From the NCBI GenBank assembly GCA_023271215.1, contig JALPYG010000003.1, forward strand, positions 1-36,927: a DNA stretch of 36,927 nt, read 5' to 3'. Positions 4,208 to 23,306 of this stretch are shown here, in pieces. Position 1 is the stretch's first letter. Every line of letters begins with the position of its first letter. A program made the position numbers and the translations under genes. The stretch is from Dehalococcoidia bacterium (GTDB lineage: Bacteria > Chloroflexota > Dehalococcoidia > SZUA-161 > SpSt-899). The notes beneath the pieces are model-generated. The model did not search any database. It saw only the letters and a list, made by a program, of their open reading frames with translations, and was not told the origin of the DNA.

Positions 4208-4236
4208 TTGACATCTCCGGAAATATATGGTACAAT
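4208..4236 (+). promoter_or_regulatory. Promoter of the paaX-bam operon
   Basis: TTGACA at 4208-4213 and TACAAT at 4231-4236 are separated by 17 bp, which is close to consensus. It lies about 50-65 bp before the regulator start and is the only strong promoter seen upstream of bamB, so it probably drives the regulator and the whole reductase operon. Confidence 0.75.
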
Positions 4237-4240
4237 GAAT

Positions 4241-4263
4241 TATGGCGGAAAATTAACGCCATA
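4241..4263. promoter_or_regulatory. Candidate operator palindrome downstream of the promoter
   Basis: TATGGCG (4241-4247) and CGCCATA (4257-4263) form a perfect 7-bp inverted repeat with a 9-bp spacer, covering the expected transcription start. That position suits repression by the adjacent PaaX-family protein. It does not match the E. coli PaaX site as I recall it, so binding is inferred from position alone. Confidence 0.5.
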
Positions 4264-4299
4264 TAAATTATCTGACATATTACCATGTGGGATCTCGCT

Positions 4300-7128: not shown

Positions 7129-7140
7129 TTACCCAGGTTG

Positions 7141-7169
7141 TCAGGCCTGCGGCCGGGGGGCAGGCCTGA
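7141..7169. repeat. GC-rich hairpin between bamB and bamC
   Basis: TCAGGCCTGC (7141-7150) and GCAGGCCTGA (7160-7169) are perfect 10-bp inverted repeats around a 9-nt GC-rich loop. No T-run follows, so it is not a classical terminator. It may stabilise the bamB mRNA end or tune the BamB:BamC ratio. A close relative, inverted and imperfect, occurs near 27482-27508. Confidence 0.75.
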
Positions 7170-7193
7170 GTAGTTATGTGGAGGGAGTGAACC

Positions 7194-7739
7194 GTGCAGG
7201 GTAAGAAAAAAACGAAAATAGTCAAAACAATAAAAATTGATCTTGATAAATGCAATGGTTGTCGGGCCTGTGAGGTAATCTGCTCCGCCTTCCACGCTAC
7301 CCCGAAATATAGCAGCACTAATCCGGCGAGGGCTCGTATTCGGGTGATTCATGACCCACTTAAAGACGTATACGTTCCTGTATACGCGGGTGAGTATACC
7401 GCAGCCGAATGTAACGGCAGAGACAAATATGTGATTGACGGAAAGGAATACGACGAGTGTGCCTTCTGCAGGGCCTCCTGTCCATCCAGGGACCTTTTCA
7501 AAGAACCCGATTCCGGTCTCCCCCTGAAATGCGATATGTGTGAAGACGATCCGCCGCAAAAAGAGCCCTTGTGTGTTCAGTGGTGCTTAAATGATGCCCT
7601 GACTTACGAAGAAAGGGAAGAGGAAGTAGAGGAAGAAGTGGAGCAGGCGGAGATGGAGATCGGATTGGAAGCATTGGCAAACAAATATGGCCTGGGCAAG
7701 ATAATGGATACCGTCGCCCGAATGTCCATGTCGCGGTGA
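7194..7739 (+). CDS. bamC: Benzoyl-CoA reductase electron-transfer subunit BamC
   Basis: A 181-residue polyferredoxin that would pass electrons to BamB. Cysteine groups are C20/C23/C26/C30 (CNGCRACEVIC), C89/C92/C96 (CAFCRASC), C113/C116 (CDMC), C127/C131 (CVQWC) and C73, enough for about three [4Fe-4S] clusters. The C-terminus has an acidic EEREEEVEEEVEQ helix and a short tail ending ARMSMSR. The layout is that of BamC from Geobacter and Desulfobacterota. The GTG start at 7194 is supported by GGAGGGAG about 6 nt upstream. It lies 65 bp after bamB, separated by a GC-rich hairpin. In the characterised system BamB and BamC purify together as a heterotetramer. Confidence 0.9.
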   Translation: MQGKKKTKIVKTIKIDLDKCNGCRACEVICSAFHATPKYSSTNPARARIRVIHDPLKDVYVPVYAGEYTAAECNGRDKYVIDGKEYDECAFCRASCPSRDLFKEPDSGLPLKCDMCEDDPPQKEPLCVQWCLNDALTYEEREEEVEEEVEQAEMEIGLEALANKYGLGKIMDTVARMSMSR

Positions 7740-7753
7740 TTAGTGAATAGTAA

Positions 7754-7887
7754 GTTGACATTGTCAGATTAGGTGGACGCCAATGAATTTCTTTCTGTCA
7801 TTGCGAGCGGAGCGAAGCAATCTCTTTTCTAGAGATTGCTCCGTCGCTTGCGCTCCTCGCAATGACACGGAAATGTGACAATGTCAA
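7754..7887. repeat. Nested palindromic (REP-like) repeat, bamC-bamD gap
   Basis: The outer arms TTGACATTGTCA (7754-7765) and TGACAATGTCAA (7876-7887) are exact reverse complements. Inside them lies a long imperfect hairpin running from TGTCATTGCGAGCGGAG (from 7797) to CTCGCAATGACA (to about 7867), with a short AT loop. The inner unit belongs to the widespread TGTCATTGCGAG...CGCAATGACA repeat type of anaerobe genomes. The nesting suggests one repeat inserted into or flanked by another. Confidence 0.75.
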
Positions 7888-7972
7888 GGTAATTAGTGAT
7901 TAGTAATCAGCAACTAGCTCGTACCACCAATCACCAATCACCAGTCACTCGATCACCAATCACCCGTCCGAA
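7888..7972. repeat. Heptamer tract (ATTAGTG / CCAATCA families)
   Basis: Degenerate heptamers related to ATTAGTG (about 7890-7910) are followed by CCAATCA-type heptamers (about 7926-7968). The two families are roughly complementary and could fold back. They fill the rest of the bamC-bamD gap, where no gene is seen. Confidence 0.65.
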
Positions 7973-7990
7973 GAGGATCAAAGAAAGATA

Positions 7991-9145
7991 ATGGAGAATG
8001 TAGCCGACTACAGAGAGATCGTAGAGGTCATAAGAGGAAGTGGTGGAGAAGCCCTGAAGAGATGCTTTCAATGCGGATTATGCGATGTTGTTTGTCCCTG
8101 GAATAGGGTTAGAGCCTTTAGTATGCGCAAGATGGTCCGAGAGGCTACGTTCGGTTTGACGGAGATAGAAAGTGAAGAGATATGGCGTTGTACTACCTGC
8201 GGAAGATGCCCTCAGCAGTGCCCCAGGGACGTAAAGCAGATAGATGACGTGGTAGCGCTCAGGAGGATCGCCACCGAAAACAGGGTGTTTCCTACTTCGG
8301 TCCGCTCTATCCATACCGTGAGCGCCGGTCTTGCTACCGGTAACCCTTTCGGTGAAGAACCGGCAAAGAGGGCCGATTGGGCAAAGGGTCTGTCTGTAAA
8401 AACGTTCGTCGAAGGGACGGAAGTTTTATATTTCCCCGGTTGCTACCTCTGCTATGACCCAAGATTAAAGAAGGTGGCTCAAGCCACAGCTAATATCCTG
8501 AACAGGGCCGGGGTAGATTTCGGGATACTGGGTGTCAAGGAGAATTGCTGTGGAGAAAGCATTCGCAAGACAGGCAATGAGGAATTATTCAAACACTTAG
8601 CCAGAGAAAACATCAAAACTTTTATCGAAAACGGGGTGATGAAAATCCTTGTTTCTTCCCCTCATTGTTACCACACATTCAAGAACGAGTATCCTGAATT
8701 CAAGGTGAACTTTGAGGTGGTTCATATCTCCCAATATTTATTCGAGCTCATTAATGAGGGAAGGCTTGAGCTCACCAGGGAGTATGGAAAGAAAGTTACC
8801 TGGCACGACCCATGTTACCTGGGTCGTCATAATGGCATATATGACGAACCCCGGGAGGTCTTAAAGAAGATACCTGGTTTACAGTTGAATGAGATGCCTG
8901 ATTCGCTGGAAGATAGTCTCTGTTGCGGAGGGGGAGGAGGCAGGATTTGGATGGAAACTCCAAAGGGTGAAAGATTCTCCGATCTCAGATTAGAACAAGC
9001 TATCGGGGTCGGGGCTGAGGTACTGGTTACTTCCTGCCCATATTGCATCAGCAATTTTGAGGATAGCAAATTAACCCTGGATGTCGGTGAAGGCATAGAG
9101 ATTAAGGACATCACGGAGATTCTGCAAGTGCAGACTGAAGGCTGA
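7991..9145 (+). CDS. bamD: BamD, HdrD-like iron-sulfur subunit
   Basis: A 384-residue protein with the HdrCB (HdrD/GlpC) layout. An N-terminal 2x[4Fe-4S] ferredoxin domain (C25/C28/C31/C35 and C67/C70/C73/C77) is followed by two CCG domains. The first has FPGCYLC, ENCCGES and SSPHC; the second has DPCYLGR, LCCGGGGG and SCPYC. CCG domains bind the unusual [4Fe-4S] cluster of heterodisulfide reductase. In the Bam complex this subunit links the HdrA-like BamE to BamC/BamB. The C-terminus QVQTEG-stop is encoded by a heptamer repeat (ACTGAAGGCTGA), so the repeat supplies the stop codon. The ribosome site (AAAGAAAGA) is weak. Confidence 0.87.
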   Translation: MENVADYREIVEVIRGSGGEALKRCFQCGLCDVVCPWNRVRAFSMRKMVREATFGLTEIESEEIWRCTTCGRCPQQCPRDVKQIDDVVALRRIATENRVFPTSVRSIHTVSAGLATGNPFGEEPAKRADWAKGLSVKTFVEGTEVLYFPGCYLCYDPRLKKVAQATANILNRAGVDFGILGVKENCCGESIRKTGNEELFKHLARENIKTFIENGVMKILVSSPHCYHTFKNEYPEFKVNFEVVHISQYLFELINEGRLELTREYGKKVTWHDPCYLGRHNGIYDEPREVLKKIPGLQLNEMPDSLEDSLCCGGGGGRIWMETPKGERFSDLRLEQAIGVGAEVLVTSCPYCISNFEDSKLTLDVGEGIEIKDITEILQVQTEG

Positions 9146-9147
9146 AG
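9122..9147 (+). repeat. Repeat providing the 3' end of bamD
   Basis: The 26 bp starting CTGCAAGTG and ending GGCTGAAG match 10178-10203, at the end of fdhD, at 24 of 26 positions. Both give a tail of LQV or QV, two residues, then TEG and stop. It belongs to the CTGAAGG/CTGAAGA heptamer family. Confidence 0.7.
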
Positions 9148-9185
9148 GGTCTAGCCTTTGCGTTCTGCACTTTGAAATTCCGTAA

Positions 9186-9415
9186 CCGTTCACGGTTTAC
9201 AGTTATCGGTTCACGGTTGATGAATGCATAAAAGCAAGAGGTTCGAAGGATTGTTGATTGTCAAAGGTGTTTACCGTAAACCGTTTTCAATATCCAAAAT
9301 GCTTCAATCGTTGCATAGTTTATTGAAAAAACTGTGAACCTTGAATGTTGAACCATCAACCATGAACCATGAACCATCAACCATGAACCATCAACCATCA
9401 ACCGTGAAAGGTGCC
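9186..9415. repeat. Heptamer tracts upstream of and inside the fdhD 5' end
   Basis: CCGTTCA, CGGTTTA, CAGTTAT, CGGTTCA and CGGTTGA occupy 9186-9220. From about 9332 to 9408 a longer tract of TGAACCA and TCAACCA heptamers follows, roughly the complement of the first. The second tract overlaps every candidate fdhD start codon and leaves no visible Shine-Dalgarno. No gene is seen between 9146 and 9341. Confidence 0.75.
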
Positions 9416-10201
9416 ACACGGGACGTAGTCTGCGATCGCTTTTCGGACCAGGGATGGGGCAGGGCCTCAGTTTATGTGCCTAGCGAGATGGAGTTCACAA
9501 TCTATGTAAATGGTCAGGAACTGGTGACCATCCTGTGCACTCCAACCAAGCTGAATTGCCTTGTCCTCGGATTCCTGTACACAGAGGGAATCATCTCAGA
9601 CATCGGCGACGTCGCGAGCATGCGGGTGTGTGAGGAGGAATCGCTGGCCGATGTGATGTTGAGCAATCCTGAGTATAAATTGCCAACGCTGCGGACACTC
9701 ACCTCCGGCTGCGGTGGGGGTGCAGTTTTCCAAACTCGGGGACAGAGGGTTGATTCGGATCTTGTTGTTACACCAACGAAAGTACTATCACTGATGAAGC
9801 AGCTTCAGGAGCAGATGGAGCTGTATCGGCTTAGTGGTGGCGTGCATACCTCAGCTCTGTCCGATACCAACAACCTGCTGGTAGTGGCTGAGGATATCGG
9901 ACGACATAACACCTTCGACAAGATCCAGGGCGAATGCCTATTGAGGGGACTATCAACCAGAGATGGATTGCTACTGAGCACCGGTCGCGTTTCGTCCGAG
10001 ATGTTGCTCAAGGCGGCAAAGATGCAGGCCTCGGTTGTTGTTTCGCGGCACTCGCCGACGGGGAGCGCCATTTCGCTTGCTCGTGATCTGGGCATTGCCC
10101 TGATTGGCTATGCGCATGGCAGCCGCCTGTCGGTGTATTCCCACCCGGAGCGACTTGGCCGCTCAACATTTAGTTCTCTGCAAGTAAAGACTGAAGGCTG
10201 A
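9362..10201 (+). CDS. fdhD: FdhD-like sulfurtransferase for Mo/W enzyme maturation
   Basis: FdhD carries sulfur from a cysteine desulfurase to the bis-pyranopterin cofactor of formate dehydrogenases. Here it sits between bamD and bamE and may serve BamB or another W/Mo enzyme. Supporting motifs are TLTSGCGGG (active-site loop), GGVHTSAL, EDIGRHNTFDKI, LLLSTGRVSSEM, VVSRHSPTGSAISLA and GYAHGSRLSVYSHPERL. The loop has one Cys rather than a CxxC pair. The start is unclear: TTG 9341, ATG 9362, ATG 9383 and GTG 9404 are in frame, all inside a heptamer repeat, and family similarity begins only at about DVVCDRFSDQGW. The upstream residues (NHEPST repeats) are repeat-encoded and perhaps not native. 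The C-terminus VKTEG-stop also comes from a repeat. Confidence 0.85.
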   Translation: MNHEPSTMNHQPSTVKGATRDVVCDRFSDQGWGRASVYVPSEMEFTIYVNGQELVTILCTPTKLNCLVLGFLYTEGIISDIGDVASMRVCEEESLADVMLSNPEYKLPTLRTLTSGCGGGAVFQTRGQRVDSDLVVTPTKVLSLMKQLQEQMELYRLSGGVHTSALSDTNNLLVVAEDIGRHNTFDKIQGECLLRGLSTRDGLLLSTGRVSSEMLLKAAKMQASVVVSRHSPTGSAISLARDLGIALIGYAHGSRLSVYSHPERLGRSTFSSLQVKTEG

Positions 10202-10275
10202 AGACTGAAGGCTGAACCGTGAACCGTGAACCTTGAACGGTGAACCTTGAACCTTGAACGGTGAACCTTGAATAA
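10178..10275. repeat. Heptamer tract fdhD-bamE
   Basis: CTGAAGA/CTGAAGG heptamers at the fdhD stop run into about nine GTGAACC, TTGAACC and TTGAACG heptamers up to about 10272. The tract fills the entire gap to bamE except for the ribosome-site region. Confidence 0.8.
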
Positions 10276-10287
10276 GGGCGGAGAGAA

Positions 10288-13200
10288 GTGAAAAAAGAAC
10301 CCGTTGAAGGGCAGCATTTTAGAATTCCCGCAGACAGCAATTTTGGAGATGTTATGGTTGTCGGTGGAGGGATCAGCGGTATTCAAGCCGCTCTTGATCT
10401 GGCCACTGCAGGTTATAAGGTTTATTTGGTAGAGAAATCACCGACCATTGGCGGCAAGATGGCCCAGCTTGATAAGACCTTTCCCACTAATGACTGCTCC
10501 ATGTGCATTGAATCTCCTAAGTTTATCGAATGTGACAGGCATCCCAATATAGAGATTCTGACCTATACCGAGGTTGACGGTATAGAAGGGGAAGCAGGAG
10601 ACTTCAAGGTAAAACTGATTAAGAAGCCCAGATACATTATAGAGGGCAGATGCACGGGTTGTACTACCTGCGTAGAGTACTGCCCGGTCCCGGCCGGTGA
10701 CCCATTTAATCAGAATTTATCGAATACTAAGGCTGTCCGTATATACTTCGCTCAAGCAATCCCCCTTGTCACTTATATAGACCCCGAAACCTGCCTTTAC
10801 CTTGAAGACGGGAAATGCACTATTTGCGAAGGAGTCTGTAAAAATGACGCCATAGACCTTCATCAAACGGCCGAGAAGGTAGAAGTAAGAGTAGGGGCGA
10901 TAGTTCTGTCTCCGGGCTATGAGGTATTTGACCCTAAATTGAGGGGCGACTATGGCTACGGAAAGTTTGAGAACGTGGTAACCAGTCTTGACTTTGAACG
11001 GCTATTATGTGCCTCCGGGCCATTCGAAGGTGAGATACTGCGCCCTTCCGACATGAAGCATCCACACAATATAGCCTGGATTCACTGCGTCGGTTCCAGA
11101 CGGGTTACCCCGGGCGATAACAGCTATTGTTCCGCGGTATGCTGCACGTATACCCAGAAGCAGGTGATTTTGACAAAAGACCACGACGCCGAGGCCAGGG
11201 CTACGATATTCCATAACGACATTCGGTCCTATGGCAAGGGTTTCGAACGATTCTATCAAAGAGCAGAGAATCTTCCCGGGGTTCGATTTATAAGAAGCTA
11301 CGTATCAATAGGAAAAGAGATCCCGGAAAGCAAGAATGTAACTATACGATACTCTACTACCGAGGAGGGAGTAAAGGAAGAAGAGTTCGATCTGGTGGTA
11401 TTATCTGTTGGAATGAATCCTCCTGCTGATGTGGAGGGCCTGGCAAATACGTTCGGCATCGAGCTCAATTCTCACGGATTCCTCAAAACCAATCCTGCCA
11501 ATCCCATTGAGACATCTCGCCCGGGAATTTTTGTAAGCGGAGCCTTCCAGGGTCCTATGGATATCCCCGAGTCGGTTATGACCGCCAGCGGGGCTGCTTC
11601 CTACTGCGGTCAACTCCTTTCTTGCCGGCGAGGGAAGCTGTCCAAAGAAAGGATGTATCCGCCGGAAAGGGATGTCTCGGAAGAGGAGCCCAGGGTGGGT
11701 GTTTTTGTGTGTCATTGTGGAGCTAATATCGGAAGAGTGGTAGATGTTCCTTCCGTAGTTGAATATGCCTTGACCTTAGACAATGTTGTCCACGCTCAAG
11801 AAAATCTCTTTTCGTGTTCTACTGATGCTGCCGAGCAAATATCAAACACGATCCGCGAAAAAGGGCTCAATCGCGTGGTTGTCGCCGCCTGCACCCCCAG
11901 GACACATGAGCCGCTATTCCGGGACACACTTCGGGAGGGGGGAATTAATCAATATTTCTTCGACATGGCTAATATTAGAGAACATTGCTCCTGGGTCCAC
12001 TCTCGAGAAAAGGAAGATGCCACCGAAAAGGCAAAGGATATAGTCCGGATGTCGGTAGCTCGAACTCTTAGTTTGCAGCCCTTGCAGGAATTTGATCTGC
12101 CCGTCAGCAAGACGGGGTTGGTGGTCGGAGGAGGCCTGGCCGGGATGACCAGTGCTCTGAGCTTAGCCAACCAGGGATTTGAGGTTCACCTGGTAGAAAA
12201 GGATACAGACCTGGGGGGAATGGCGCGAAGAATTCATTTCACCCTGGAAGGGCTGGATGTTCAAGCATATTTGCGTGATGTTATACGCAAGGTATATCAG
12301 CATCCCTTAATACATGTATCACATGATGCTACCATAACTGATGTTTCCGGTTACGTGGGGAATTTCATAACCACGGTGGAATCTGAAGGAAGGGTCAAAG
12401 TGATACACCATGGCGCAACCATCCTTGCTACTGGTGCCGACGAATATAGACCCACCGAATACCTTTACGGGGAAGGCAGGGTATTGACCCTGCTGGAGTT
12501 GGAGGAGCAAATCGCCAGGGGAGAAGAAAGGCTGATTAACTCCCAGAGTCTGGTGATGATCCAATGTGTAGGTTGCAGAGAAGAGGACAGAAATTACTGC
12601 GCCCGGGTATGTTGCAGCCAGGCTATAAAGAACGCCTTGAAACTAAGAGAGATAAACCCCCGGATGGATATCTACATTCTCTATCGGGACATGATGACGT
12701 ATGGGTTGAGTGAGGATTATTATCGAGAAGCGTCAGACAAGGATGTGAAGTTCATCCGCTATGAGGCGCATGATAAACCTCAGGTGGAAGCTGTTGAGGA
12801 GGATGGTCAGTCTATCTTAAGGGTTACCGTGACCGATCCTATTTTAGGTCAGACGCTTGCTATAGATGCGGATTCACTCGCTCTGGCTGCCGCCGTTATT
12901 CCCTCGGCAGGAAGTCAGGAAATATCCCGATTATTCAAGGTACCCTTGAGCCCGGAGGGCTTCTTCCAGGAAGCTCATGTAAAATTAAGGCCCGTGGACT
13001 TCGCTGCAGATGGCGTTTTCCTGTGCGGAATAGCTCACTATCCCAAGCATATATCAGAAACGATTAGCCAGGCTTATGGAGCTGCCGGCCGGGCCGTAAC
13101 TATTCTTTCAAAGGATTCAGTCATAGCCTCAGGTGCTATTTGCGAGGTAAATGAAAGTGAGTGCGTAGGGTGTGGGGCGTGTCAATCGGTTTGTCAATAC

Positions 13201-13416
13201 GGTGCTATAGAGCTTCATGATACACGACAAGGCAAAAAGGCCAGGGTTATTCCTGTTCTCTGTAAAGGAGATGGTCTCTGTAACGCAAAGTGTCCAACGG
13301 GGGCTATTTCACTAAAGCACTATACCGATGAAGAGGTCTTTCGCCAAATCGACGCCGCGGTTCCAGCCTTACGTGGAGAAGTCAGAAGTCAGAGAATAGA
13401 GAACAGAATCGTCTGA
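10288..13416 (+). CDS. bamE: BamE, duplicated HdrA-like flavoprotein
   Basis: A 1042-residue protein built of two HdrA units; HdrA flavins carry out electron bifurcation. Unit 1 has an FAD fold (VVGGGISGIQAAL, about residues 24-36), the NDCSMC motif (C70, C73) and a ferredoxin motif C122/C125/C128/C132. It continues with a second cysteine group (CTICEGVC) and the CVGSR...YCSAVCC block. Unit 2 starts at about residue 472 with the HdrA hallmark VCHCGANIGRVVDV, then ACTPRTHEPLFR, a second FAD fold (VVGGGLAGMTSAL, about 612-624) and C-terminal ferredoxin motifs (CVGCGACQSVC at about 958, CKGDGLCNAKC at about 991). The GTG start at 10288 follows GGCGGAGAG. The size and duplication fit BamE. The last codons and the stop run into a repeat hairpin (13384-13428). 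Confidence 0.88.
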   Translation: MKKEPVEGQHFRIPADSNFGDVMVVGGGISGIQAALDLATAGYKVYLVEKSPTIGGKMAQLDKTFPTNDCSMCIESPKFIECDRHPNIEILTYTEVDGIEGEAGDFKVKLIKKPRYIIEGRCTGCTTCVEYCPVPAGDPFNQNLSNTKAVRIYFAQAIPLVTYIDPETCLYLEDGKCTICEGVCKNDAIDLHQTAEKVEVRVGAIVLSPGYEVFDPKLRGDYGYGKFENVVTSLDFERLLCASGPFEGEILRPSDMKHPHNIAWIHCVGSRRVTPGDNSYCSAVCCTYTQKQVILTKDHDAEARATIFHNDIRSYGKGFERFYQRAENLPGVRFIRSYVSIGKEIPESKNVTIRYSTTEEGVKEEEFDLVVLSVGMNPPADVEGLANTFGIELNSHGFLKTNPANPIETSRPGIFVSGAFQGPMDIPESVMTASGAASYCGQLLSCRRGKLSKERMYPPERDVSEEEPRVGVFVCHCGANIGRVVDVPSVVEYALTLDNVVHAQENLFSCSTDAAEQISNTIREKGLNRVVVAACTPRTHEPLFRDTLREGGINQYFFDMANIREHCSWVHSREKEDATEKAKDIVRMSVARTLSLQPLQEFDLPVSKTGLVVGGGLAGMTSALSLANQGFEVHLVEKDTDLGGMARRIHFTLEGLDVQAYLRDVIRKVYQHPLIHVSHDATITDVSGYVGNFITTVESEGRVKVIHHGATILATGADEYRPTEYLYGEGRVLTLLELEEQIARGEERLINSQSLVMIQCVGCREEDRNYCARVCCSQAIKNALKLREINPRMDIYILYRDMMTYGLSEDYYREASDKDVKFIRYEAHDKPQVEAVEEDGQSILRVTVTDPILGQTLAIDADSLALAAAVIPSAGSQEISRLFKVPLSPEGFFQEAHVKLRPVDFAADGVFLCGIAHYPKHISETISQAYGAAGRAVTILSKDSVIASGAICEVNESECVGCGACQSVCQYGAIELHDTRQGKKARVIPVLCKGDGLCNAKCPTGAISLKHYTDEEVFRQIDAAVPALRGEVRSQRIENRIV

Positions 13417-13428
13417 CCTCTGACTTCT
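13384..13428. repeat. Inverted repeat over the bamE stop codon
   Basis: AGAAGTCAGAG (13384-13394) and CTCTGACTTCT (13418-13428) are perfect 11-bp arms. The bamE TGA (13414-13416) lies in the loop. AT-rich sequence with short T-runs follows, but a strong terminator is not evident and the operon seems to continue. Confidence 0.75.
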
Positions 13429-13462
13429 ATTTTCTGTCTTCTGCCTTAGGAGTGAGATAAGA

Positions 13463-14230
13463 ATGGGTACAGGGTTTGAGTTTAAGCCAAGGATCTTAGG
13501 TTTTTTATGCAATTGGTGCTGCTACGCAGGGGCCGACCTTGCCGGAGTTTCCCGGTATCAATACCCCCCTCACATAAGGGTGATAAGGCTGATGTGCTCC
13601 GGCAGAGTAGACCTGGCATTTATTCTCCGAGCTTTCTCAAACGGAACAGACGGGGTGTTTATCGGCGGTTGTTGGCTGGGCGAATGCCATTATATTACCG
13701 AAGGGAATTACGATGCATTAAGCATGATGCATCTATGTAGAAAATTACTGGAGCACATAGGAGTGAACCCCGACAGGTTAAGGCTTGAATGGGTATCTGC
13801 CTCTGAAGGAATCCGTTTCGCCGAAATTATGAATGACTTTACCAGGAAGCTGAAGGAGTTAGGTCCTCTTGGAATAGGCGAAGGAAGAGACGTAAATGGA
13901 TTGAAATTAAAACTTGAAGCAGCTAGAAATTTGGTTCCCTACATTAAGCTGGTGGAAAGGGAGAGATTGAGAGTACATTTTGATACCGAAGACGAATATA
14001 ACGAATTCTTCACCAGTGACGAGGTAAATTGGTTATTCGACGAATTAATTGGTGATAAATTGTCACTAAGCCAAATAATGTTACTCCTGCGGGAAAGACC
14101 CCTTTCAACCGGTGAAATCTCCGAGATTTTAGGCCTAAGCCTGTCTGAAGTATCAAGACACCTTAATATTTCAGCAAGGAAAGGATTGACCAGATTCAGC
14201 GAAAGGCAGAAACGCTTTGCGCCTGCTTGA
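13463..14230 (+). CDS. bamF: BamF, MvhD-like [2Fe-2S] protein with C-terminal HTH-like domain
   Basis: A 255-residue protein. Residues 9-135 are an MvhD/FrhD-type domain that mediates electron entry into HdrA, with C16-x-x-C19-C20-Y-x-x-A-D, C45 (MCSGRV) and C70/C75 (GGCWLGECHY). Geobacter BamF is reported as a selenoprotein as I recall; here all these positions are ordinary Cys codons and there is no in-frame TGA. Residues 200-245 (LSQIMLLLRERPLSTGEIS, EILGLSLSEVSRHLN) look like an ArsR/MarR-style helix-turn-helix, an addition to the basic MvhD fold. The ATG at 13463 is preceded by TAGGAGTGAG. It lies 46 bp after bamE. Confidence 0.85.
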   Translation: MGTGFEFKPRILGFLCNWCCYAGADLAGVSRYQYPPHIRVIRLMCSGRVDLAFILRAFSNGTDGVFIGGCWLGECHYITEGNYDALSMMHLCRKLLEHIGVNPDRLRLEWVSASEGIRFAEIMNDFTRKLKELGPLGIGEGRDVNGLKLKLEAARNLVPYIKLVERERLRVHFDTEDEYNEFFTSDEVNWLFDELIGDKLSLSQIMLLLRERPLSTGEISEILGLSLSEVSRHLNISARKGLTRFSERQKRFAPA

Positions 14231-14265
14231 GGGGAAAGCGAAAAGACCAGAAATAGGACAGAAGC

Positions 14266-14718
14266 ATGGATCACGATAAAACTGACCAGATCATAAATAA
14301 ATATCAGGGCGATGCCAGTTCACTAATTCAGATATTACTGGAGATTCAGAGCCAAAATCGTTGGCTTCCTAGAGAAGTATTAGAGAAGGTCAGCAAGAAA
14401 TTAGAAGTGCCTTTAAATCGGATACAGCATATAGTCACCTTTTATAAAGCCTTCAGTTTAATCCCTAAAGGACGCCATGAAATTCACGTATGTATGGGCA
14501 CTGCCTGCCATGTTCGTGGTGCGACGCGCGTCCTCGAGACGGTGCAAGACCTGACCGGAATTAAACCCGGCGAAACGGACTTTGATTTGAAGTTCAGCCT
14601 GGAAACTGTTAACTGCATCGGCTGCTGTGCTTTAGGACCGGTGATGGAAATCGATGGGAAGACCCACGGTAAGTTGGCGCCGGCCGAGACAGCAGACGTA
14701 TTGAAAAACTATGAGTAG
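14266..14718 (+). CDS. bamG: BamG, NuoE-like thioredoxin-fold [2Fe-2S] subunit
   Basis: A 150-residue NuoE/HoxE-type protein. Four cysteines bind the [2Fe-2S] cluster: C76 and C81 (CMGTAC, spacing C-x4-C) plus C117 and C121 (CIGCC, spacing C-x3-C). The N-terminal helical part (SLIQILLEIQSQNRWLPREVLEKVSKKL) matches the family, as does the length. With BamH it should form the NAD(H)-oxidising module of the complex. It lies 35 bp after bamF and 9 bp before bamH, clearly in the same operon. The assignment as BamG rather than a generic NuoE rests on this order. Confidence 0.9.
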   Translation: MDHDKTDQIINKYQGDASSLIQILLEIQSQNRWLPREVLEKVSKKLEVPLNRIQHIVTFYKAFSLIPKGRHEIHVCMGTACHVRGATRVLETVQDLTGIKPGETDFDLKFSLETVNCIGCCALGPVMEIDGKTHGKLAPAETADVLKNYE

Positions 14719-14727
14719 GATAAAACT

Positions 14728-16644
14728 ATGTCGCCGATAAATTCGCCCGCTGAATTGGAAGAATTCAGGAAGGGCATCATGTCGAGAAGAGACCCAGCCA
14801 CGCCCTGCGTTTCAATATGTGCCGGTACCGGTTGTATTGCCTCCGGTGCGGATGAAGTCATCGTAGCTTTCAAAGCAGAGATTGAAAAGCGGGACTTACA
14901 GGCTGATGTGGATATCAAAGGGACCGGGTGCCCTGGATTCTGTGAGCGAGGGCCGGTGGTGATTATTTATCCCGAGGAGATATGCTATCTCCAGGTAACG
15001 CCTGAAGATGTTTCCGATATTGTCTCACAGACCATAGAGGCATCAGGGGGAGACCCCCTGAAACCCCCCGTCGTCGATCGTCTTCTCTACGTTGACCCCA
15101 CCACGGGCGAAAAAGCAATCCATGAATCCGATATCCCCTTTTATAAGAATCAAAAACGAAACTTGATCTGCGATAATACTAAGATTGATTCAAAGAGCAT
15201 CGATGACTATCTGGCGATTGATGGTTATTCCGCATTAGCCAAAGCTCTTACCGGAATGACTCCCGAGGAAGTATTGGAGGAAGTAAAAAAATCAAACCTG
15301 AGAGGGAGGGGTGGTGGCGGTTTTCCCACGGGAAGAAAGTGGGAAGGTTCCCGCAATGTCCCTGAGCCAATAAAATATGTGATCGTCAATGCCGATGAGG
15401 GTGACCCCGGTGCATTCATGGATAGAGCTCTCCTCGAAGGAAATCCTCATTCAATCCTTGAGGGGTTGATCATCGGAGGCTATGCCATCGGTGCCCACGA
15501 GGGCTATGTTTACGTTCGGCAGGAATACCCCCTGGCAGTTGAAAATGTGACCCTCGCGATCAAGCAAGCTGAGGAATATGGTTTTCTGGGGAAAAACATC
15601 CTTGGCTCGGGCTTTGATTTCACGGTTAAGGTGCACCAGGGGGCCGGCGCTTTCGTTTCTGGTGAATCGACTGCTCTGATGAGGGCATTGGAGGGCAGCG
15701 TAGGTGAGCCCCGACCGAAGTATATTCGCTCCAACGTCAAGGGCCTTTGGGAAAAACCCAGCGTGATGAATAATGTTGAGACGTGGGCGAATGTGCCGCT
15801 GATCATCAATAGGGGCGCTGACTGGTTTACGCAATTCGGAACGGAAGGAAGCAAGGGTACGAAGATTTTTTCCCTGGTCGGCAAGATAACCAATACCGGC
15901 CTTGTGGAAGTACCCATGGGCATGACCCTGAAAGATATTGTCTACAAGATAGGTGGCGGCATCCCTGGAGGCAAGAGATTCAAAGCAATACAGACCGGGG
16001 GACCGTCCGGAGGATGTATCCCTGAAGAACATTTAGATATAAAAGTTGATTTTGACGAACTCACCAAAGCCGGCTCGATGATGGGTTCAGGCGGGATGAT
16101 CGTCATGGATGAAGATACCTGTATGGTTGATGTCGCCAGGTACTTCCTTAATTTCCTCGCTGATGAATCGTGTGGCAAATGTGTCCCATGCCGTGAAGGC
16201 ATCAGGCAGATGCTTAAGATTCTGACCAATATCACCAAAGGAAAGGGACGAGTGGGCGATATCGAGTTTTTAGAGGAGCTATCCGAGGTAACTAGAGACG
16301 CCTCTCTTTGTGCCTTAGGGAGGACTGCTCCTAACCCGGTCTTAAGCACCATACGCTACTTCAGAGACGAGTATGAGGCACACATCAAGGAGAGGAAGTG
16401 CCCCGCCTATGTCTGCAAGGAGCTAATCTCGTACTACATTGACCCCGACAAGTGCGAAGCTTGCATGATTTGCCTTAGGAAATGCCCCGTAGAGGCAATC
16501 ACAGGCGGCAAGAACCAGATCCATGTAATCGACCAGGAGAAATGCACAAAGTGTGAGACTTGCTTCGAAGTTTGTCCTCCACGCTTTGGTGCAGTGAAAA
16601 AGATTTCCGGTGAGCTTGTTCCGGTTTCTCAGCCTGAAGACTGA
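14728..16644 (+). CDS. bamH: BamH, NuoF-like NADH/FMN subunit with extra ferredoxin domains
   Basis: A 638-residue HndC/HoxF-like protein. In order it has an N-terminal thioredoxin-like [2Fe-2S] domain (C31, C36, C68, C72) and a glycine-rich loop at 193-205 (GRGGGGFPTGRKW). Then come NADEGDPGAFMDRALLEGNPH (FMN/NAD site), GAGAFVSGESTAL, the N3-type [4Fe-4S] motif SCGKCVPC near 480, and two [4Fe-4S] ferredoxin motifs near 575-625 (CEACMICLRKC, CTKCETCFEVC). It should exchange electrons with NAD(H). The last residues (SQPED) run into CTGAAGA heptamers that follow the stop closely. No key residue is missing. It could serve another bifurcating complex, but position and order favour Bam. Confidence 0.9.
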   Translation: MSPINSPAELEEFRKGIMSRRDPATPCVSICAGTGCIASGADEVIVAFKAEIEKRDLQADVDIKGTGCPGFCERGPVVIIYPEEICYLQVTPEDVSDIVSQTIEASGGDPLKPPVVDRLLYVDPTTGEKAIHESDIPFYKNQKRNLICDNTKIDSKSIDDYLAIDGYSALAKALTGMTPEEVLEEVKKSNLRGRGGGGFPTGRKWEGSRNVPEPIKYVIVNADEGDPGAFMDRALLEGNPHSILEGLIIGGYAIGAHEGYVYVRQEYPLAVENVTLAIKQAEEYGFLGKNILGSGFDFTVKVHQGAGAFVSGESTALMRALEGSVGEPRPKYIRSNVKGLWEKPSVMNNVETWANVPLIINRGADWFTQFGTEGSKGTKIFSLVGKITNTGLVEVPMGMTLKDIVYKIGGGIPGGKRFKAIQTGGPSGGCIPEEHLDIKVDFDELTKAGSMMGSGGMIVMDEDTCMVDVARYFLNFLADESCGKCVPCREGIRQMLKILTNITKGKGRVGDIEFLEELSEVTRDASLCALGRTAPNPVLSTIRYFRDEYEAHIKERKCPAYVCKELISYYIDPDKCEACMICLRKCPVEAITGGKNQIHVIDQEKCTKCETCFEVCPPRFGAVKKISGELVPVSQPED

Positions 16645-16700
16645 AGACTGAAGGCTTAAGCGATCAACCTTGAACCGTGAACCGTGAACCTTGAACCAGG
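16636..16700. repeat. Heptamer tract bamH-bamI
   Basis: CTGAAGA/CTGAAGG heptamers at the bamH stop are followed by TTGAACC and GTGAACC heptamers to about 16698. They fill the 66-bp gap to bamI. Confidence 0.75.
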
Positions 16701-16710
16701 GTAAAGAAAG

Positions 16711-17361
16711 ATGAGTGAAATCCTTTTACAGATTGACGGAAGAGAAGTTAAAACAAGGGAAGGGGCGACCATTTTGGAGGCAGCACAAAGCGCAGGAATT
16801 GACATCCCTACGCTATGTCATCATGAAAAATTGGAACCTTATGGGGCCTGCCGAATTTGTACAGTAGAAGTAGAAACTCGCGGTAGGACAAATTTCGTTG
16901 CTGCCTGCCTTTACCCTGTAGAAGAAAATCTGGTGGTAAGAACCAGATCGGAGAAGATAGATAAAATTCGCAAGGTACTTGTGGAGTGGCTGCTGGCTCA
17001 TGCTCCAGAATCCAGGGTATTGCAAAATCTGGCTCAGGAATATAGAGTAAAGGAAGCTCGTTTTGAAAAAGAGCCGTCATTTTGCATTCTTTGCGGTCTA
17101 TGTGTAAGATATTGCGCCGAGGTCAAAAAGAAAAACGCTATTGGATTTGCTGAGAGAGGAGTAAGACGAGAGGTGATTTTCATCCCAGAGATAGCCTCTA
17201 AGGAGTGCTGGAAGTGCCAGGAATGTTTTTCGCTTTGCCCCACAGAGGCAGTACAAGCAACATTTCTCTTAACTGAAGCGCTTTGTAACTACCCGGGTTC
17301 CAGGTTCCGGGTTCACGGTTCAACGGTTAGGCAGTGCCAACCTCGCAACCTTGAACCTTGA
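16711..17361 (+). CDS. bamI: BamI, NuoG N-terminal-like ferredoxin subunit
   Basis: A 216-residue protein equal to the N-terminal iron-sulfur part of NuoG or HoxU. It has a plant-type [2Fe-2S] motif C36/C47/C50/C66, then C125/C128/C131/C135 (CILCGLCVRYC) and C166/C169/C172/C176 (CWKCQECFSLC) for two [4Fe-4S] clusters. It would complete the NADH-side electron path BamG-BamH-BamI. From about residue 193 (NYPGSRFRVHGSTVRQ...) the sequence is translated heptamer repeat (GGTTCCG, GGTTCAC). The native C-terminus was probably nearer residue 190, and the repeat supplies the tail and the stop. Confidence 0.86.
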   Translation: MSEILLQIDGREVKTREGATILEAAQSAGIDIPTLCHHEKLEPYGACRICTVEVETRGRTNFVAACLYPVEENLVVRTRSEKIDKIRKVLVEWLLAHAPESRVLQNLAQEYRVKEARFEKEPSFCILCGLCVRYCAEVKKKNAIGFAERGVRREVIFIPEIASKECWKCQECFSLCPTEAVQATFLLTEALCNYPGSRFRVHGSTVRQCQPRNLEP

Positions 17362-17387
17362 ACCTTCAACCTTGAACCTTGAACCTT
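17290..17387. repeat. Heptamer tract overlapping the bamI 3' end and the hdrA start
   Basis: GGTTCCA, GGTTCCG, GGTTCAC and GGTTCAA heptamers (about 17298-17325) are followed by about six TTGAACC/TTCAACC heptamers (about 17349-17386). The second set is roughly the reverse complement of the first, so RNA of this gap could fold into a hairpin. The tract ends right at the ATG of the next gene and leaves no Shine-Dalgarno. Confidence 0.8.
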
Positions 17388-20300
17388 ATGGAGACAAGAA
17401 CCGGAGTTTACATCTGCCACTGCGGGCTGAACATCGCCGCCACGGTAAATCCGGGGGAGGTAGCGGGAGATGCCGCATCCCTTCGTGACGTGGTGGTGGC
17501 CCGTGATTATATGTTCATGTGCTCTGATCCGGGGCAGGAGCTGATCATGAAGGATATCAAGGAGCAGGGCCTTAACCGGGTAGTGGTGGCCTCATGCTCG
17601 CCGATGCTCCATGAGCGCACCTTCCGCCGTGTCTGCCAGGAGGCGGGTTTGAACCCCTATCTCTTCAAGATGGCCAACATCCGCGAGCATTGCAGTTGGG
17701 TACATAAGGATGGGGCCACGGAGAAGGCGAAGGCACTTGTACGGGCGGCGGTACTGCGGGGGCATTATCAGGAACCTCTACAGACGATGGAAGTTCCCAT
17801 TAACCCGAACACGCTGGTTGTTGGTGGAGGCATTGCAGGGATACAGGCGGCCTTAGACATCGCCATTGCCGGTTATAAGGTCTACCTGGTGGAGCAGGAG
17901 CCCTCGATTGGGGGGCACATGATACAACTGGACAAGACCTTCCCCACGCTTGACTGCTCGGCGTGCATCACCACCCCTAAGATGAGCGATGCGGGCTCAC
18001 ACCCGAACATTGAGCTGCTGACCTACAGTGAGGTAACGGAGGTAGCGGGCTACATCGGCAATTTCACCGTCAAGATAAAGAGGAAATCGAGGTATGTCGA
18101 TGAGAGCAAGTGTAACGGGTGTGGCCTGTGTTTCGCGGGATGTCCGGTGGTGATGGGAAACGAGTTCGATCTGGGTCTGAGGGAGCGCAAGGCGATCTAC
18201 GTGCCCTTTCCGCAGGCGGTGCCCAACAAAGCGGTGATAGATAAGCGCGAGGAGCGACTCTGCAAGGCTGCCTGTGTGGATGCCTGCCCGATCTCGACCA
18301 ATGTACTGGGTTACATCAAGCTGATTGCTGAGGGGAAGTTTAAGGAATCATACGAGCTTATAAGGGCAACCAATCCGCTTCCGGCGGTTTGCGGCCGGAT
18401 TTGCTACGCCCCCTGCCAGGAGGCCTGCAACCGGGGGCAGATCGACGAGCATGTGGCTATTTGCGATCTCAAGAGATTTGCCACCGATCAGGTGGATATC
18501 GCTAAGCTTGAAGTCCCCCAAATCACGGCGACGGGCAAAAGGGTGGCGGTTATCGGATCGGGGCCTGCCGGGCTGGCGGCGGCCAATGACCTTGCCCTAG
18601 AGGGGCATGGAGTGACCGTCTTTGAAGCCCTGCCCGAACCCGGGGGCATGCTTCGCTATGCCATCCCGGAGTATCGTCTTCCCCGGGAGCTTCTTCGCCA
18701 GGAGATAGATTACATCCGCAGGCTGGGGGTGGAGATAAGAACGGGGGTTGAGGTGGGAAAGGACATCTCCCTTGCCGAGGTAAGAAATGAATACCAGGCG
18801 GTCTTCATCTCCGCCGGTGCACAGGGGGGGATGAGGTTAGGGGTGGAGGGAGAGGATCTCCCCGGGGTGATGGAGGGCATCAGGTTCCTTCGGGAGGTAA
18901 ACCTTTCCGAGTTTCGAGTTCCGAGTTCCGAGGTGGGGGGTGGGGACTCAGCACTCAGTACTCAGCACTCGGTACTCGGTCGGGTGGCGGTGATTGGGGG
19001 AGGCAATACGGCTGTTGACTGCGCTCGGACGGCCAGGCGCCTTGGAGGGGAGGAGGTGAGGATCATCTACCGTCGCTCCCGGGCCGAGATGCCGGCCTCA
19101 AGCGAAGAGGTAACTGCGGTGGAGGAGGAAGGGATAGGGATAGATTTTCTGACGGCACCGGTGCGATTTCTCTCTGAGGACGGGAGACTCACGGGGATAG
19201 AGTGCATCAGGATGAAGCTCGGGGAGCCGGATGCCAGTGGCCGGGCCCGTCCGGTCCCCATTGAGGGGTCGGAGTTCAGGATGGGTGTGGATACGGTGAT
19301 AGCTGCTCTGGGACAGGTGCCGGAGACCGGATTCGTCCGGGAACTCGGGATATCACTGGGGAAGACGGGCACGATAGCGATCGATGCCCGTACCGGGGCG
19401 ACGAGCATCGAAGGGGTATTTGCCGGGGGGGACGTGGTGACCGGACCTGCCTTTGCCATCGATGCCATCGCTGCGGGGAAGAGGGCGGCGCGTTCGATAG
19501 GCCGCTATCTGAATGGCGAGCCGATGGAGGTTGAGGAAGAGGAGGGTAAGCCGGAGAGGCTCTCCGAGGAGGAGGTCAAGTCATTAAAGGAACAGTTTCC
19601 AGCGGAGAAGCGGGTGGAGATGGGGGAGGAACCGGTAAAAGAGAGGGTTGCTGACTTCCGAGAGGTAGCCCTGGGGTATACTGAGTCGGAGGCAGTTGGG
19701 GAGGCTTCACGGTGTCTTGCAGGGCAGATAGAGGGATGTATCGAGTGCCGGGAGTGCGAGAGGCGGTGTGAGCCCGGAGCGATCAATTATGAGATGAAGG
19801 ATGAAACTATCCAGGTGGAGGTGGGGAGCATCATCCTGGCCACTGGTTACGATCAGTTCGATCCCTCGGGTATACCGGAATACGGGTATGGAAGGTATGA
19901 GAACGTTATCACCGGGTTGGAATTTGAGCGGCTCTCAAATGCTGCCGGGCCGACGGCGGGGCAGATACTGCTGAAGAATGGCCGGCCACCCCGGAGTGTA
20001 GCCATTATTCATTGTGTGGGCAGCCGGGATAAGAACTTTCACGAGTACTGTTCCCGGGTTTGCTGCATGTATGCTTTGAAATTTGCGCATCTGATCAGGG
20101 AGAAGACCGATGCCGAAGTATATCAACTGTACATTGACATGCGATGTTTTGGGGAGGGGTACGAGGAATTTTACGAGCGTGTGGGGACCGAGGACGGGGT
20201 GAACTTTATCCGGGGGAAGGCGTCGCGGGTAACCGACCAGGCTTTGAACGAGGAGGAGGAAGGGAAGCTCATCGTCTGCGTGGAAGATACGCTGCTGGGC

Positions 20301-20813
20301 AGTTTCATGCGGGTGCCGGTGGAGATGGTGATTCTTTGCACTGCGCTGGAGCCGAGGGCGAACACGGAGGAGATGGCCCGGCTCTTCTCCATCGGGCAGA
20401 GAGCGGATGGATTCTTCCTGGAGAGGCATGTCAAGCTTGCCCCAATAGCGACCACGACCGAGGGGCTGTTCGTTGCCGGGTGCTGCGAAGGCCCGCGGGA
20501 CATCCCGGACACGGTGGCTCAAGCTAAGGCGGCCGCTTCCGATGTGTTGAGTCTGCTGGCACGGGGCAAGGTGGAGATCGAGCCCATCGTTGCCTCGGTG
20601 GACGAGGAGATCTGCGCCGGCTGCGGTCTGTGTGAGAAGATATGCTCCTATAGTGCGCCCTCGATTGACAGGCTTCGGAGAGTGACGGTGGTCAATCAGG
20701 CTCTGTGTAAGGGTTGCGGTGCCTGTGCCGTCACCTGCCCTTCAGGGGCGATGAGCTTAAGCCATTTCACTCGTCGCCAGATACTGGAGGAAGTGGAGGC
20801 CTTGGTCTATTAG
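17388..20813 (+). CDS. HdrA flavoprotein with inserted GltD/NfnB-like NAD(P)H domain
   Basis: A 1141-residue fusion. Residues 1-280 are the first half of an HdrA: CHCG near 8, ASCSPMLHERTFRR, an FAD fold VVGGGIAGIQAAL near 144, DCSACITTPK near 190 and ferredoxin CNGCGLCFAGC near 241. Residues 286-735 are a complete GltD/NfnB-like module: CKAACVDACPIS cluster domain near 291, FAD fold VAVIGSGPAGLAAAN near 385, NAD(P) fold VAVIGGGNTAVDCA near 532 with YRRSRAEMPAS, and GVFAGGDVVTGP near 674. HdrA resumes near 783 (CIECRECERRC...) and ends with two ferredoxin motifs near 1074-1115. It probably couples NAD(P)H to HdrA flavin chemistry, as an extra input or output for the Bam module (inference). 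ATG 17388 fits the family; no ribosome site is visible. A heptamer tract lies in frame near residue 505-531. Confidence 0.85.
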   Translation: METRTGVYICHCGLNIAATVNPGEVAGDAASLRDVVVARDYMFMCSDPGQELIMKDIKEQGLNRVVVASCSPMLHERTFRRVCQEAGLNPYLFKMANIREHCSWVHKDGATEKAKALVRAAVLRGHYQEPLQTMEVPINPNTLVVGGGIAGIQAALDIAIAGYKVYLVEQEPSIGGHMIQLDKTFPTLDCSACITTPKMSDAGSHPNIELLTYSEVTEVAGYIGNFTVKIKRKSRYVDESKCNGCGLCFAGCPVVMGNEFDLGLRERKAIYVPFPQAVPNKAVIDKREERLCKAACVDACPISTNVLGYIKLIAEGKFKESYELIRATNPLPAVCGRICYAPCQEACNRGQIDEHVAICDLKRFATDQVDIAKLEVPQITATGKRVAVIGSGPAGLAAANDLALEGHGVTVFEALPEPGGMLRYAIPEYRLPRELLRQEIDYIRRLGVEIRTGVEVGKDISLAEVRNEYQAVFISAGAQGGMRLGVEGEDLPGVMEGIRFLREVNLSEFRVPSSEVGGGDSALSTQHSVLGRVAVIGGGNTAVDCARTARRLGGEEVRIIYRRSRAEMPASSEEVTAVEEEGIGIDFLTAPVRFLSEDGRLTGIECIRMKLGEPDASGRARPVPIEGSEFRMGVDTVIAALGQVPETGFVRELGISLGKTGTIAIDARTGATSIEGVFAGGDVVTGPAFAIDAIAAGKRAARSIGRYLNGEPMEVEEEEGKPERLSEEEVKSLKEQFPAEKRVEMGEEPVKERVADFREVALGYTESEAVGEASRCLAGQIEGCIECRECERRCEPGAINYEMKDETIQVEVGSIILATGYDQFDPSGIPEYGYGRYENVITGLEFERLSNAAGPTAGQILLKNGRPPRSVAIIHCVGSRDKNFHEYCSRVCCMYALKFAHLIREKTDAEVYQLYIDMRCFGEGYEEFYERVGTEDGVNFIRGKASRVTDQALNEEEEGKLIVCVEDTLLGSFMRVPVEMVILCTALEPRANTEEMARLFSIGQRADGFFLERHVKLAPIATTTEGLFVAGCCEGPRDIPDTVAQAKAAASDVLSLLARGKVEIEPIVASVDEEICAGCGLCEKICSYSAPSIDRLRRVTVVNQALCKGCGACAVTCPSGAMSLSHFTRRQILEEVEALVY
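18909..18978 (+). repeat. In-frame heptamer hairpin inside hdrA-gltD
   Basis: GAGTTTC, GAGTTCC and GAGTTCC (18909-18929) precede a G-rich spacer and then GGACTCA, GCACTCA, GTACTCA, GCACTCG, GTACTCG (18944-18978). The two families are complementary, so the tract can fold. It adds about 25 residues between the two nucleotide-binding folds of the GltD part, a likely surface linker. Confidence 0.8.
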
Positions 20814-21374: not shown

Positions 21375-22145
21375 ATGGAGTATCGGGAAATAATCCTGCT
21401 GAAGCAGGGCGAAATGGCCAGGATCACCATCAACCGACCCCCGGTTAACGTGATGACCTTGAACACCATAGCCGAGCTGAACCAGGCACTAGGGGGATTG
21501 AGGGAAGATCCCGAGGTCAAGGTGGTGATCATCCGGGGAAGCGGGGAGCGGGCCTTCTCCGCTGGCGTGGAGGTGGCCGACCATCTGGGCGAGAAGTTGC
21601 CCCTGATGTTGGAGGAGTTTGGCCGGTTGTTCAAGTCGTTGAGGAACGTAGGCAAACCGGTCGTCGCCGTGGTAAATGGCATCGCTTTGGGCGGCGGCTG
21701 CGAACTGGTGGCCGGGTGCGATATGGCTATCGCCTCGGAGAAAGCTCAGTTCGGTCAGCCGGAGATAAAGCTGGGTGTGAACCCTCCGCCGGCAAGCGTG
21801 CTTTTCCCCAGGCTCATAGGGATGAAAAAGGCCCTGGAGTTGATCCTCACCGGCGATTCCATAGATGCGTGGGAGGCGCAGAGGATAGGTCTGGTGAACA
21901 AAGTGGTCCCTCACGAGGAACTGGACCAGGCTGCCGAGGAATTCGCCGGCCGGCTTCTGGAGAAGAGCGGGTACATACTGAAGTTGACCCGGGGGGCCAT
22001 CTACGAGGTTAGCGAGATAAGCGACTACGAGAAGGCCCTCGACCTTATGACCTACCGGTCGCGTAAGATCATGGAGTCTGAGGACGCCGTCGAGGGACTG
22101 ACCTCTTTCATCGAAAAGCGCAAGCCGGTCTGGAAAAACCGGTGA
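21375..22145 (+). CDS. dch: Enoyl-CoA hydratase family, probable cyclohexa-1,5-diene-1-carboxyl-CoA hydratase
   Basis: A 256-residue crotonase. Oxyanion-hole loops are FSAGVEV (61-67) and ALGGGCE (104-110), with acidic residues E110 and E130 in the positions of the crotonase catalytic pair. The blocks FSAGVEVADH, FGQPEIKLGV, PPPASVLFPRLIGMKKALELILTGD and the end GLTSFIEKRKPVWKNR agree, as I recall, with the dienoyl-CoA hydratases (Dch/BamR) that add water to the product of class II benzoyl-CoA reductase. The location 4 kb after bamI supports that role. ATG 21375 has a strong ribosome site (AGGAGG, about 5 nt upstream). The stop overlaps the start of the next gene (TGATG). A general enoyl-CoA hydratase remains possible. 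Confidence 0.72.
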   Translation: MEYREIILLKQGEMARITINRPPVNVMTLNTIAELNQALGGLREDPEVKVVIIRGSGERAFSAGVEVADHLGEKLPLMLEEFGRLFKSLRNVGKPVVAVVNGIALGGGCELVAGCDMAIASEKAQFGQPEIKLGVNPPPASVLFPRLIGMKKALELILTGDSIDAWEAQRIGLVNKVVPHEELDQAAEEFAGRLLEKSGYILKLTRGAIYEVSEISDYEKALDLMTYRSRKIMESEDAVEGLTSFIEKRKPVWKNR

Positions 22146-23306
22146 TGGCAAGTATAATAGACGAACTGGAGCCCATCTTTAATCCCCGAAGCATCGCCGT
22201 GATAGGAGCCTCAGATAATCCCGCTAAGCTGGGCTATCACTGCATGAAGAGCCTGAAAGAGAGCGGGCTTCAGTCCATACATCCCATAAATCCGCGCTCT
22301 TCGGAGATCTGGGGATTTCCGGCCTATCCCTCGCTGAGAGAGGTACATCAGGAAATCGACCTGGCTATCGTGATTGTGCCGGCCTCTGCGGTTCCTTCAG
22401 CAATAGAGGACTGTGCCCGGAAGGGGATAAAGGGCATTGTCCTTATGACTGGCGGATTCAGGGAAGCGGAAGACCCGGCGAGGGCCGAGCTTCAGGATGA
22501 GATAGCTTCGCTGGCCGTCAAGAGTGGAATCAGGGTGATCGGCCCCAACACATTTGGATTTGTCAATCTCTCGGTCCATCTGAATGCCTCCTTTACCCCG
22601 GAATTCCTCGCCACCCGAAGGGGCAACATAAGCCTCATAAGTCAGAGCGGCGGGGTATGCCACCTTCTGTCCCCCTTGCTGATGGAATCGGAGAGGGTGA
22701 TAGGTTTCTCCAAGATTGTGGGCCTGGGCAACCGGTGCAATCTTGATTTTGCCGACGTGCTGGAGTACCTGGCGGTGGACCCGGAGACCAGGGTGATCCT
22801 GATGTATCTCGAGGGGATAGATGATGCTCGCAGGCTTATCGAGGTTGCCCGGCGAGTGGCGCCCCAAAAGCCCATAGTAGCCTTCAAGTCAGGAAAGACG
22901 ACCACTGCGGACAGAGCGGCTTATTCTCGTACCGGTTCCCTGGCTGGAAAGCACGAGGTCTATCTCGCCGCTTTCAGGCAGGCCGGCATCCTGTTAGCGA
23001 GCGATTTCGAGGAATTGCTGGATATCTGACCCGAACATTGATGCCCTCTTGTTTCTCTCTGCCTATGCCTCAGCCAACGAGCCCGTAATCAGAGCGCTCG
23101 CTGCAGTGTTGAAGGAGGAGATCGAGGCTCGCCGGAAGCCGATCCTCACCTGCTTCCCGGCACCGCTGGGAATCTGGGAGGAAAGGGTCGAGCTGGAGGA
23201 GAGCGGCATTCCGGTTTATGCTACGCCGGAGAGGGCGGCTAGATCTCTGGCAGGTTTGGTCTGCTACGGGGATATCCCGGCTTTGGCGCTATTCACGAAA
23301 ACTTGA
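22145..23306 (+). pseudogene. NDP-forming acyl-CoA synthetase alpha subunit, internally deleted
   Basis: The first frame (22145-23029) has the CoA-binding Rossmann domain (SIAVIGASDNPAKLGY), then IGPNTFGFVN and the succinyl-CoA-ligase-like domain (SLISQSGGVCH, ILMYLEGIDD). It stops in DFEELLDI. A second frame (through 23306) resumes at DPNIDALLFLSAYASANEPV. In intact homologues about 110 residues separate these points, so roughly 330 bp are deleted with a frame change. In addition, the phospho-acceptor His of the SHTGSLAG motif is Arg here (R262, codon CGT at 22928), from family knowledge. The gene is therefore probably inactive. An intact version would make an acyl-CoA while forming ATP. Its end overlaps the convergent AAA gene by 14 bp. 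Confidence 0.8.

Follow-up and report, generated by a model that had tools for sequence, protein, structure and literature searches.

The gene hdrA-gltD in the window (the whole 36,927-nucleotide stretch of Dehalococcoidia DNA analysed here) encodes a single polypeptide in which a GltD/NfnB-type module interrupts HdrA, a large flavoprotein of electron transfer. We class it as a bacterial protein, NADPH-type by prediction, that belongs to an already described type of HdrA and is weakly tied to Bam. What is new is not the fusion but its mosaic composition, in which the HdrA shell and the insert resemble different families. The account that we hold to be probable is that of a bifurcating HdrA whose ferredoxin port would have become an NADP(H) port, with a recombined GltD module and a standing independent of bam.

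Domain layout, fold and known counterparts

The open reading frame (17388..20813, forward strand, as are all features below) is single and intact and offers two starts in the same frame, one at 17379 (1,144 residues) and an ATG at 17388 (1,141 residues); we prefer the latter because base 17387 is where identity with two sister species, G002 and G003, sets in. Matches to HdrA cover residues 1–302 and 781–1140 (HdrA2 model, E=3e-253), PDB 5odc is matched by residues 2–287 and 782–1139, and between the HdrA matches lie Fer4_20 (292–369) and Pyr_redox_2 (385–697). The first part of HdrA (17388..18251; residues 1–288) comprises the N-terminal cluster domain, the first half of the TrxR-like FAD domain and the first cluster motif of the inserted ferredoxin domain, CNGCGLCFAGC (18111..18143; C242–C252). 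The GltD/NfnB-type module (18252..19733; about residues 288–782) contributes a Fer4_20 two-cluster domain, an FAD Rossmann fold (GSGPAG), an NAD(P) Rossmann fold (GGGNTA) and a C-terminal linker, after which HdrA resumes (19734..20813; residues 783–1141) with the motif C784–C794, the remainder of the FAD domain and a C-terminal two-cluster ferredoxin (C1076–C1117). The insertion site therefore lies between both cysteine motifs (C242–C252 and C784–C794) of the inserted two-cluster ferredoxin domain of HdrA.

An AlphaFold2 model of the polypeptide (mean pLDDT 83, pTM 0.69) reproduces both folds, with a target TM of 0.90 for the HdrA shell against 5odh and of 0.81 and 0.78 for the insert against NfnB (4ylf and 5jca, respectively). 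The lowest pLDDT (residues 512–526) falls in an extra loop of ~17 residues before the NADP Rossmann fold, encoded by heptanucleotide repeats within the reading frame (18905..18977) that are common to the window and G003 and missing from the other aligned fusions. Cysteine motifs predict about eight [4Fe-4S] clusters, and the motifs would allow two FADs. Domain matches, cysteine motifs and the model bear out the preliminary description of an HdrA that is split after its first ferredoxin motif, receives a complete GltD/NfnB module and then resumes; its picture of one polypeptide with two FAD sites, an NAD(P) site and multiple clusters is likewise predicted from the motifs. An assembly artefact joining two genes, which that description had considered, is ruled out by the 99% identical reading frame in G003, a full-length paralogue on another contig of this genome and synteny of the outer flanks of the locus, on both sides, with G003 and G002.

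The architecture of HdrA with an inserted GltD is already known and widespread. It has been published both as type III HdrA and as the Moorella HdrA. The name type III (classes A9/A10) was given in 2025 on the basis of nine archaeal sequences (PMC12054007). In the type III proteins of ANME-1 and Bathyarchaeota, the inserted ferredoxin domain is likewise the site of GltD, both K409 and E356 are kept and the domain order is otherwise A1-like (PMC12054007). The window protein has the same HdrA core (TrxR-like FAD domain, N- and C-terminal cluster domains), GltD in the inserted ferredoxin domain and equivalents of E356 and K409. It differs in being bacterial and encoded after bamI, and in carrying GGGNTA and YRR, predicted to be NADPH-type, whereas the archaeal proteins were read as NAD-preferring from GXGXXG (PMC12054007). 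Against the nine sequences and two insertions described in that study, we find the fusion to be widespread, and one tree shows at least six changes of insert state.

In the HdrA of the Moorella HdrCBA–MvhD–MetVF methylene-THF reductase, reported in 2022 (PMC9430772), GltD likewise interrupts the TrxR-like HdrA domain, but that protein is about 1,490 residues long, with a second HdrA and the motif CLES, as against 1,141 residues and YRR in the window. The GltD modules of NfnB and StnC/NfnABC (4ylf, 5jca, 8oh5 and 9bov) share fold, Fer4_20 and YRR with the insert but stand outside HdrA, and NfnB bifurcates with a Glu ligand in place of the Lys that the window shares with StnC. Methanogen HdrA (5odc/5odh) agrees with the window in its shell, bifurcation residues and cluster motifs; unlike the window protein, it has a ferredoxin domain without an insert.

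Our survey of fusions is a sample, and its counts (at least about 50 other fusions, 52 aligned) are lower bounds. Within it, fusions occur in Chloroflexota, Bathyarchaeota, Desulfobacterota, Bacillota, Bacteroidota and Actinomycetota, among others, and nearly all 52 share the junction ..QAVPNxxxIDK..PCxxxCP. Neighbouring genes are mostly HdrBC-like, MvhD-like or other hdrA genes, nearly always outside bam clusters.

Cofactor motif, bifurcation residues and predicted electron path

The second Rossmann fold of the insert carries YRR (19068..19076; residues 561–563) at the NADP(H) 2′-phosphate site, as do the NADP(H) enzymes 5jca, 4ylf and 9bov. The YRR residues of T. maritima NfnB bind the phosphate of NADP, and DsrL-2, likewise with YRR, works strictly with NADP(H) (PMC7596348). 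On the strength of this motif, the GltD module is predicted to prefer NADPH, which is how the choice between NADPH and NADH, left by the preliminary description to this Rossmann fold, now falls. YRR is found in 36 of the 52 fusions sampled and a CLE-like motif in 11. All eight Moorella-genus homologues that were read contain CLES together with GXGXXA (GGGNVA), yet the Moorella enzyme has been shown experimentally to oxidize NADH (PMC9430772). This makes the GXGXXG/A rule for NAD preference doubtful, and we set it aside; the NAD-type GXGXXG, a descriptive trait of archaeal type III HdrA, is replaced in the window by the NADP-like combination of GGGNTA and YRR. From these comparisons, YRR or CLES seems a better guide to NADP or NAD use than the GXGXXG/A rule.

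The same genome encodes a second full-length HdrA–GltD (L017, G000:C2), 60% identical to the window protein, with CLESR in place of YRR, similar to the CLES of the Moorella-genus homologues. Given YRR in one copy and CLESR in the other, this genome seems to encode one HdrA–GltD of NADPH type and one of NADH type. The paralogue is part of a GlcD–CCG–HdrA–MvhD–CoA-transferase operon (L017:6355-14135), likely a hydroxyacid oxidation system. Over 3.1 kb, a contig of this genome with a standard hdrA shares 95% identity with the Dehalococcoidia isolate AH-958-E16.

Alignment to HdrA identifies E847 (19926..19928) as the equivalent of E356 and K898 (20079..20081) as that of K409, the bifurcation signature. 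At the ligand position of the proximal cluster in the insert lies K362 (18471..18473), corresponding to E117 of NfnB and K170 of StnC; this ligand is Glu in bifurcating NfnB and Lys in non-bifurcating StnC (PMC7596348, PMC10482914). The insert thus has the YRR of NfnB and lacks its Glu ligand. By this Lys/Glu rule, behind which stand few enzymes, only the FAD of HdrA itself is predicted to bifurcate, and the GltD FAD would act as a relay that takes a hydride and passes on single electrons. The preliminary description had envisaged a second bifurcation site, which would place two tandem bifurcations within one polypeptide. The GltD modules of NfnAB do bifurcate and the fold of the insert matches NfnB; but K362 is the residue of StnC, whose GltD FAD does not bifurcate, where NfnB has Glu, and an NfnA-type partner is not encoded at the window locus. 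Such a second site is in our view highly improbable.

With a single flavin predicted to bifurcate, the GltD-type module (FAD, NADP site and two clusters), threaded between the halves of the inserted ferredoxin domain, would take electrons from NADPH at its FAD, predicted not to bifurcate, and hand them on singly by way of the clusters of GltD and then those of the inserted ferredoxin until they reach the bifurcating FAD of HdrA; the flow may equally run the opposite way. Beyond this FAD, the path may lead to an MvhD-type partner and an HdrD/HdrBC-like CCG partner. No mvhD or CCG genes adjoin hdrA in the window besides bamF and bamD.

Ancestry of shell and insert, and other modules in the same domain

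In a tree of the HdrA shell, the window protein groups with that of G003 and then with a HoxU-bearing orthologue from a further sister species, G001; the same clade also holds insert-free HdrA (L146 and L223) and three other GltD-bearing proteins, all from Desulfobacterota. Placing the GltD-bearing sequences in a single clade on the shell is rejected (p-AU 1.4e-60), and with it the idea that the fusion arose only once in this shell; the tree is compatible with gains of the insert as much as with losses. Sliding identity locates mosaic breakpoints near residues 245 and 805. Residues 1–240 and 801–1141 of the window protein resemble L146 (60–95% per block) and G001 (78–100%), and residues 281–800 resemble a 910-residue HdrA–GltD family (G036, L118, G007 and L110; mostly 65–82%), whose C-terminal half is only 22–60% alike to the window. 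The GltD tree agrees with this grouping of the insert. Because the shell groups with a bam-linked, insert-free HdrA and the GltD module with another family, insert and shell have had different histories, in whichever order gain, loss and replacement took place. The GltD module would have come by recombination out of another HdrA–GltD family into this HdrA shell.

The orthologue in G001 (L053:2-2242, G001:C266), encoded after bamFGHI, is 91% (residues 1–254) and 90% (786–1033) identical to the window protein and carries between these parts, where the window has GltD, a HoxU-type 2Fe-2S/4Fe-4S module ~230 residues long. The entry point of this module directly follows the first ferredoxin motif and lies some 30 residues N-terminal to that of GltD. 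Split HdrA-N proteins have a C-terminus that matches the tail CPVRYIPQ. The G001 contig is 5.7 kb long and ends within hdrA; among 393 genomes searched, no second one with the single-polypeptide HoxU form was found. In five genomes (G734, G814, G825, G006 and G013), hdrA is split at this point, giving HdrA-N, NuoE, NuoF and HoxU::HdrA-C, and G052 encodes HdrA-N::NuoE, NuoF::GltD and HoxU::HdrA. These split layouts are those of loci L246, L248, L249 and L105–L108, the break in hdrA falling at its inserted ferredoxin domain.

The GltD module looks exchangeable because close relatives carry another module, or none, in the same gene. We consider it reasonably likely that the inserted ferredoxin domain of HdrA is a general plug-in port, at which orthologues, including bam-linked ones, would swap GltD, HoxU, NuoE–NuoF–HoxU (with hdrA split) or no module by recombination within conserved HdrA sequence. 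If so, the nicotinamide pool of a bifurcating complex could be retuned with its partners unchanged. Near-identical shells that differ in what they carry (NADPH module, HoxU module or nothing), together with the split operons around NuoEF, amount to a natural swap experiment, which makes the choice of pyridine nucleotide by bifurcating HdrA complexes testable.

The bam block and the leader of hdrA-gltD

Upstream of hdrA-gltD lies a PaaX–bamBCD–fdhD–bamEFGHI block (4104..17386), in which bamB (5155..7128) encodes a class II benzoyl-CoA reductase (1247 bits to PDB 4z3w) and bamI (16711..17361) is HoxU-like; hdrA-gltD starts 26 bp past bamI. Downstream follow enoyl-CoA hydratase (ech) and acyl-CoA synthetase-like (acs) genes (21375..23029), of which acs is kept beside hdrA in G003 and both in G002. 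In these two genomes, a HIT gene (window 3471-4103) joins hdrA-gltD directly and the 13.3-kb PaaX–bam block is missing between the same flanks, an absence that applies to this locus in MAGs that are 53–81% complete. Their hdrA-gltD is 98% identical to the window copy. The G+C content is 45–50% in the bam genes and 56–60% in hdrA, ech and acs, with hdrA itself at 57–60%.

The preliminary description had raised the idea of a direct NADPH branch into Bam, in which HdrA–GltD would be an extra subunit serving the class II benzoyl-CoA reductase. In support of this idea, BamB is a true BCR, the bamI–hdrA gap is 26 bp and bamI also lies 5′ of the orthologous HdrA in G001, where the bamFGH DNA is only 74% identical, so that the adjacency is no recent accident; moreover, in Desulfobacteraceae (L146) a related CCG–HdrA pair without an insert follows bamHI. 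By contrast, G002 and G003 keep the gene without the bam block, the block differs in G+C, and Desulfobacterota relatives (G465, G466 and G526; 76, about 75 and 63% identity) lie in mvhD–CCG–hdrA(GltD) cassettes without bam. No hdrA-gltD was found in the bam clusters of other Chloroflexota, and bamI–hdrA adjacency occurs in only this genome (G000) and, with the HoxU insert, in G001, rather than as a conserved presence beside bam genes. A role as a Bam subunit is in our judgement rather unlikely; the link to Bam is weak, and the NADPH branch is possible but unproven. A NuoEF-type NADH unit is already present among the adjacent bam genes.

A fusion specific to Bam is ruled out by the survey, the mvhD–CCG cassettes and G002/G003: other hdr clusters, in various phyla, house at least about 50 fusions, and the gene persists without bam in two sister species. 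A common generic HdrA variant unrelated to Bam, which the preliminary description had named as the contrary outcome, is close to what we found. We favour hdrA-gltD as an independent unit that was possibly recruited to Bam here, where BamF (MvhD-type) and BamD (CCG-type) could serve as partners. Adjacency alone does not assign such a gene to Bam. We found no literature naming both BamI and Chloroflexi with benzoyl-CoA reductase.

Directly before the ATG, the window has a leader of heptamer repeats, (AACCTTG)n (17346..17387), in place of the G002/G003 leader, TTTAGGGGGTCGAT-ATG in G003, which has a clear ribosome-binding site. This site is lost in the window copy, and expression is therefore uncertain. 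The bam adjacency might then be incidental, the block having replaced the native leader of a gene that is now decaying or silent and poorly expressed. The heptamer leader lacking a ribosome-binding site and the repeats inside the coding sequence fit such a history, but the frame is intact with all ligands present, identity to G002/G003 is 98% and G003 has the coding repeat too; we hold this reading as a whole to be very unlikely. Period-7 tandem repeats with differing units occur at window positions 9349-9408, 10187-10272, 17346-17387, 18905-18977 and 33483-33527, all in intergenic gaps except one, which lies within the coding sequence of hdrA.

Two further observations concern the bam genes. 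At its C-terminus, the MvhD-type BamF (window 13463-14230) matches an ArsR-like winged helix (Pfam HTH_5, E=1e-8), unlike BamF of other Chloroflexota, which has a ferredoxin-like domain there. BamB (window 5155-7128) is 86% identical to that of a Desulfobacteraceae MAG (G447:C31, L200), and this identity between Dehalococcoidia and Desulfobacteraceae suggests transfer of the bam cluster between phyla.
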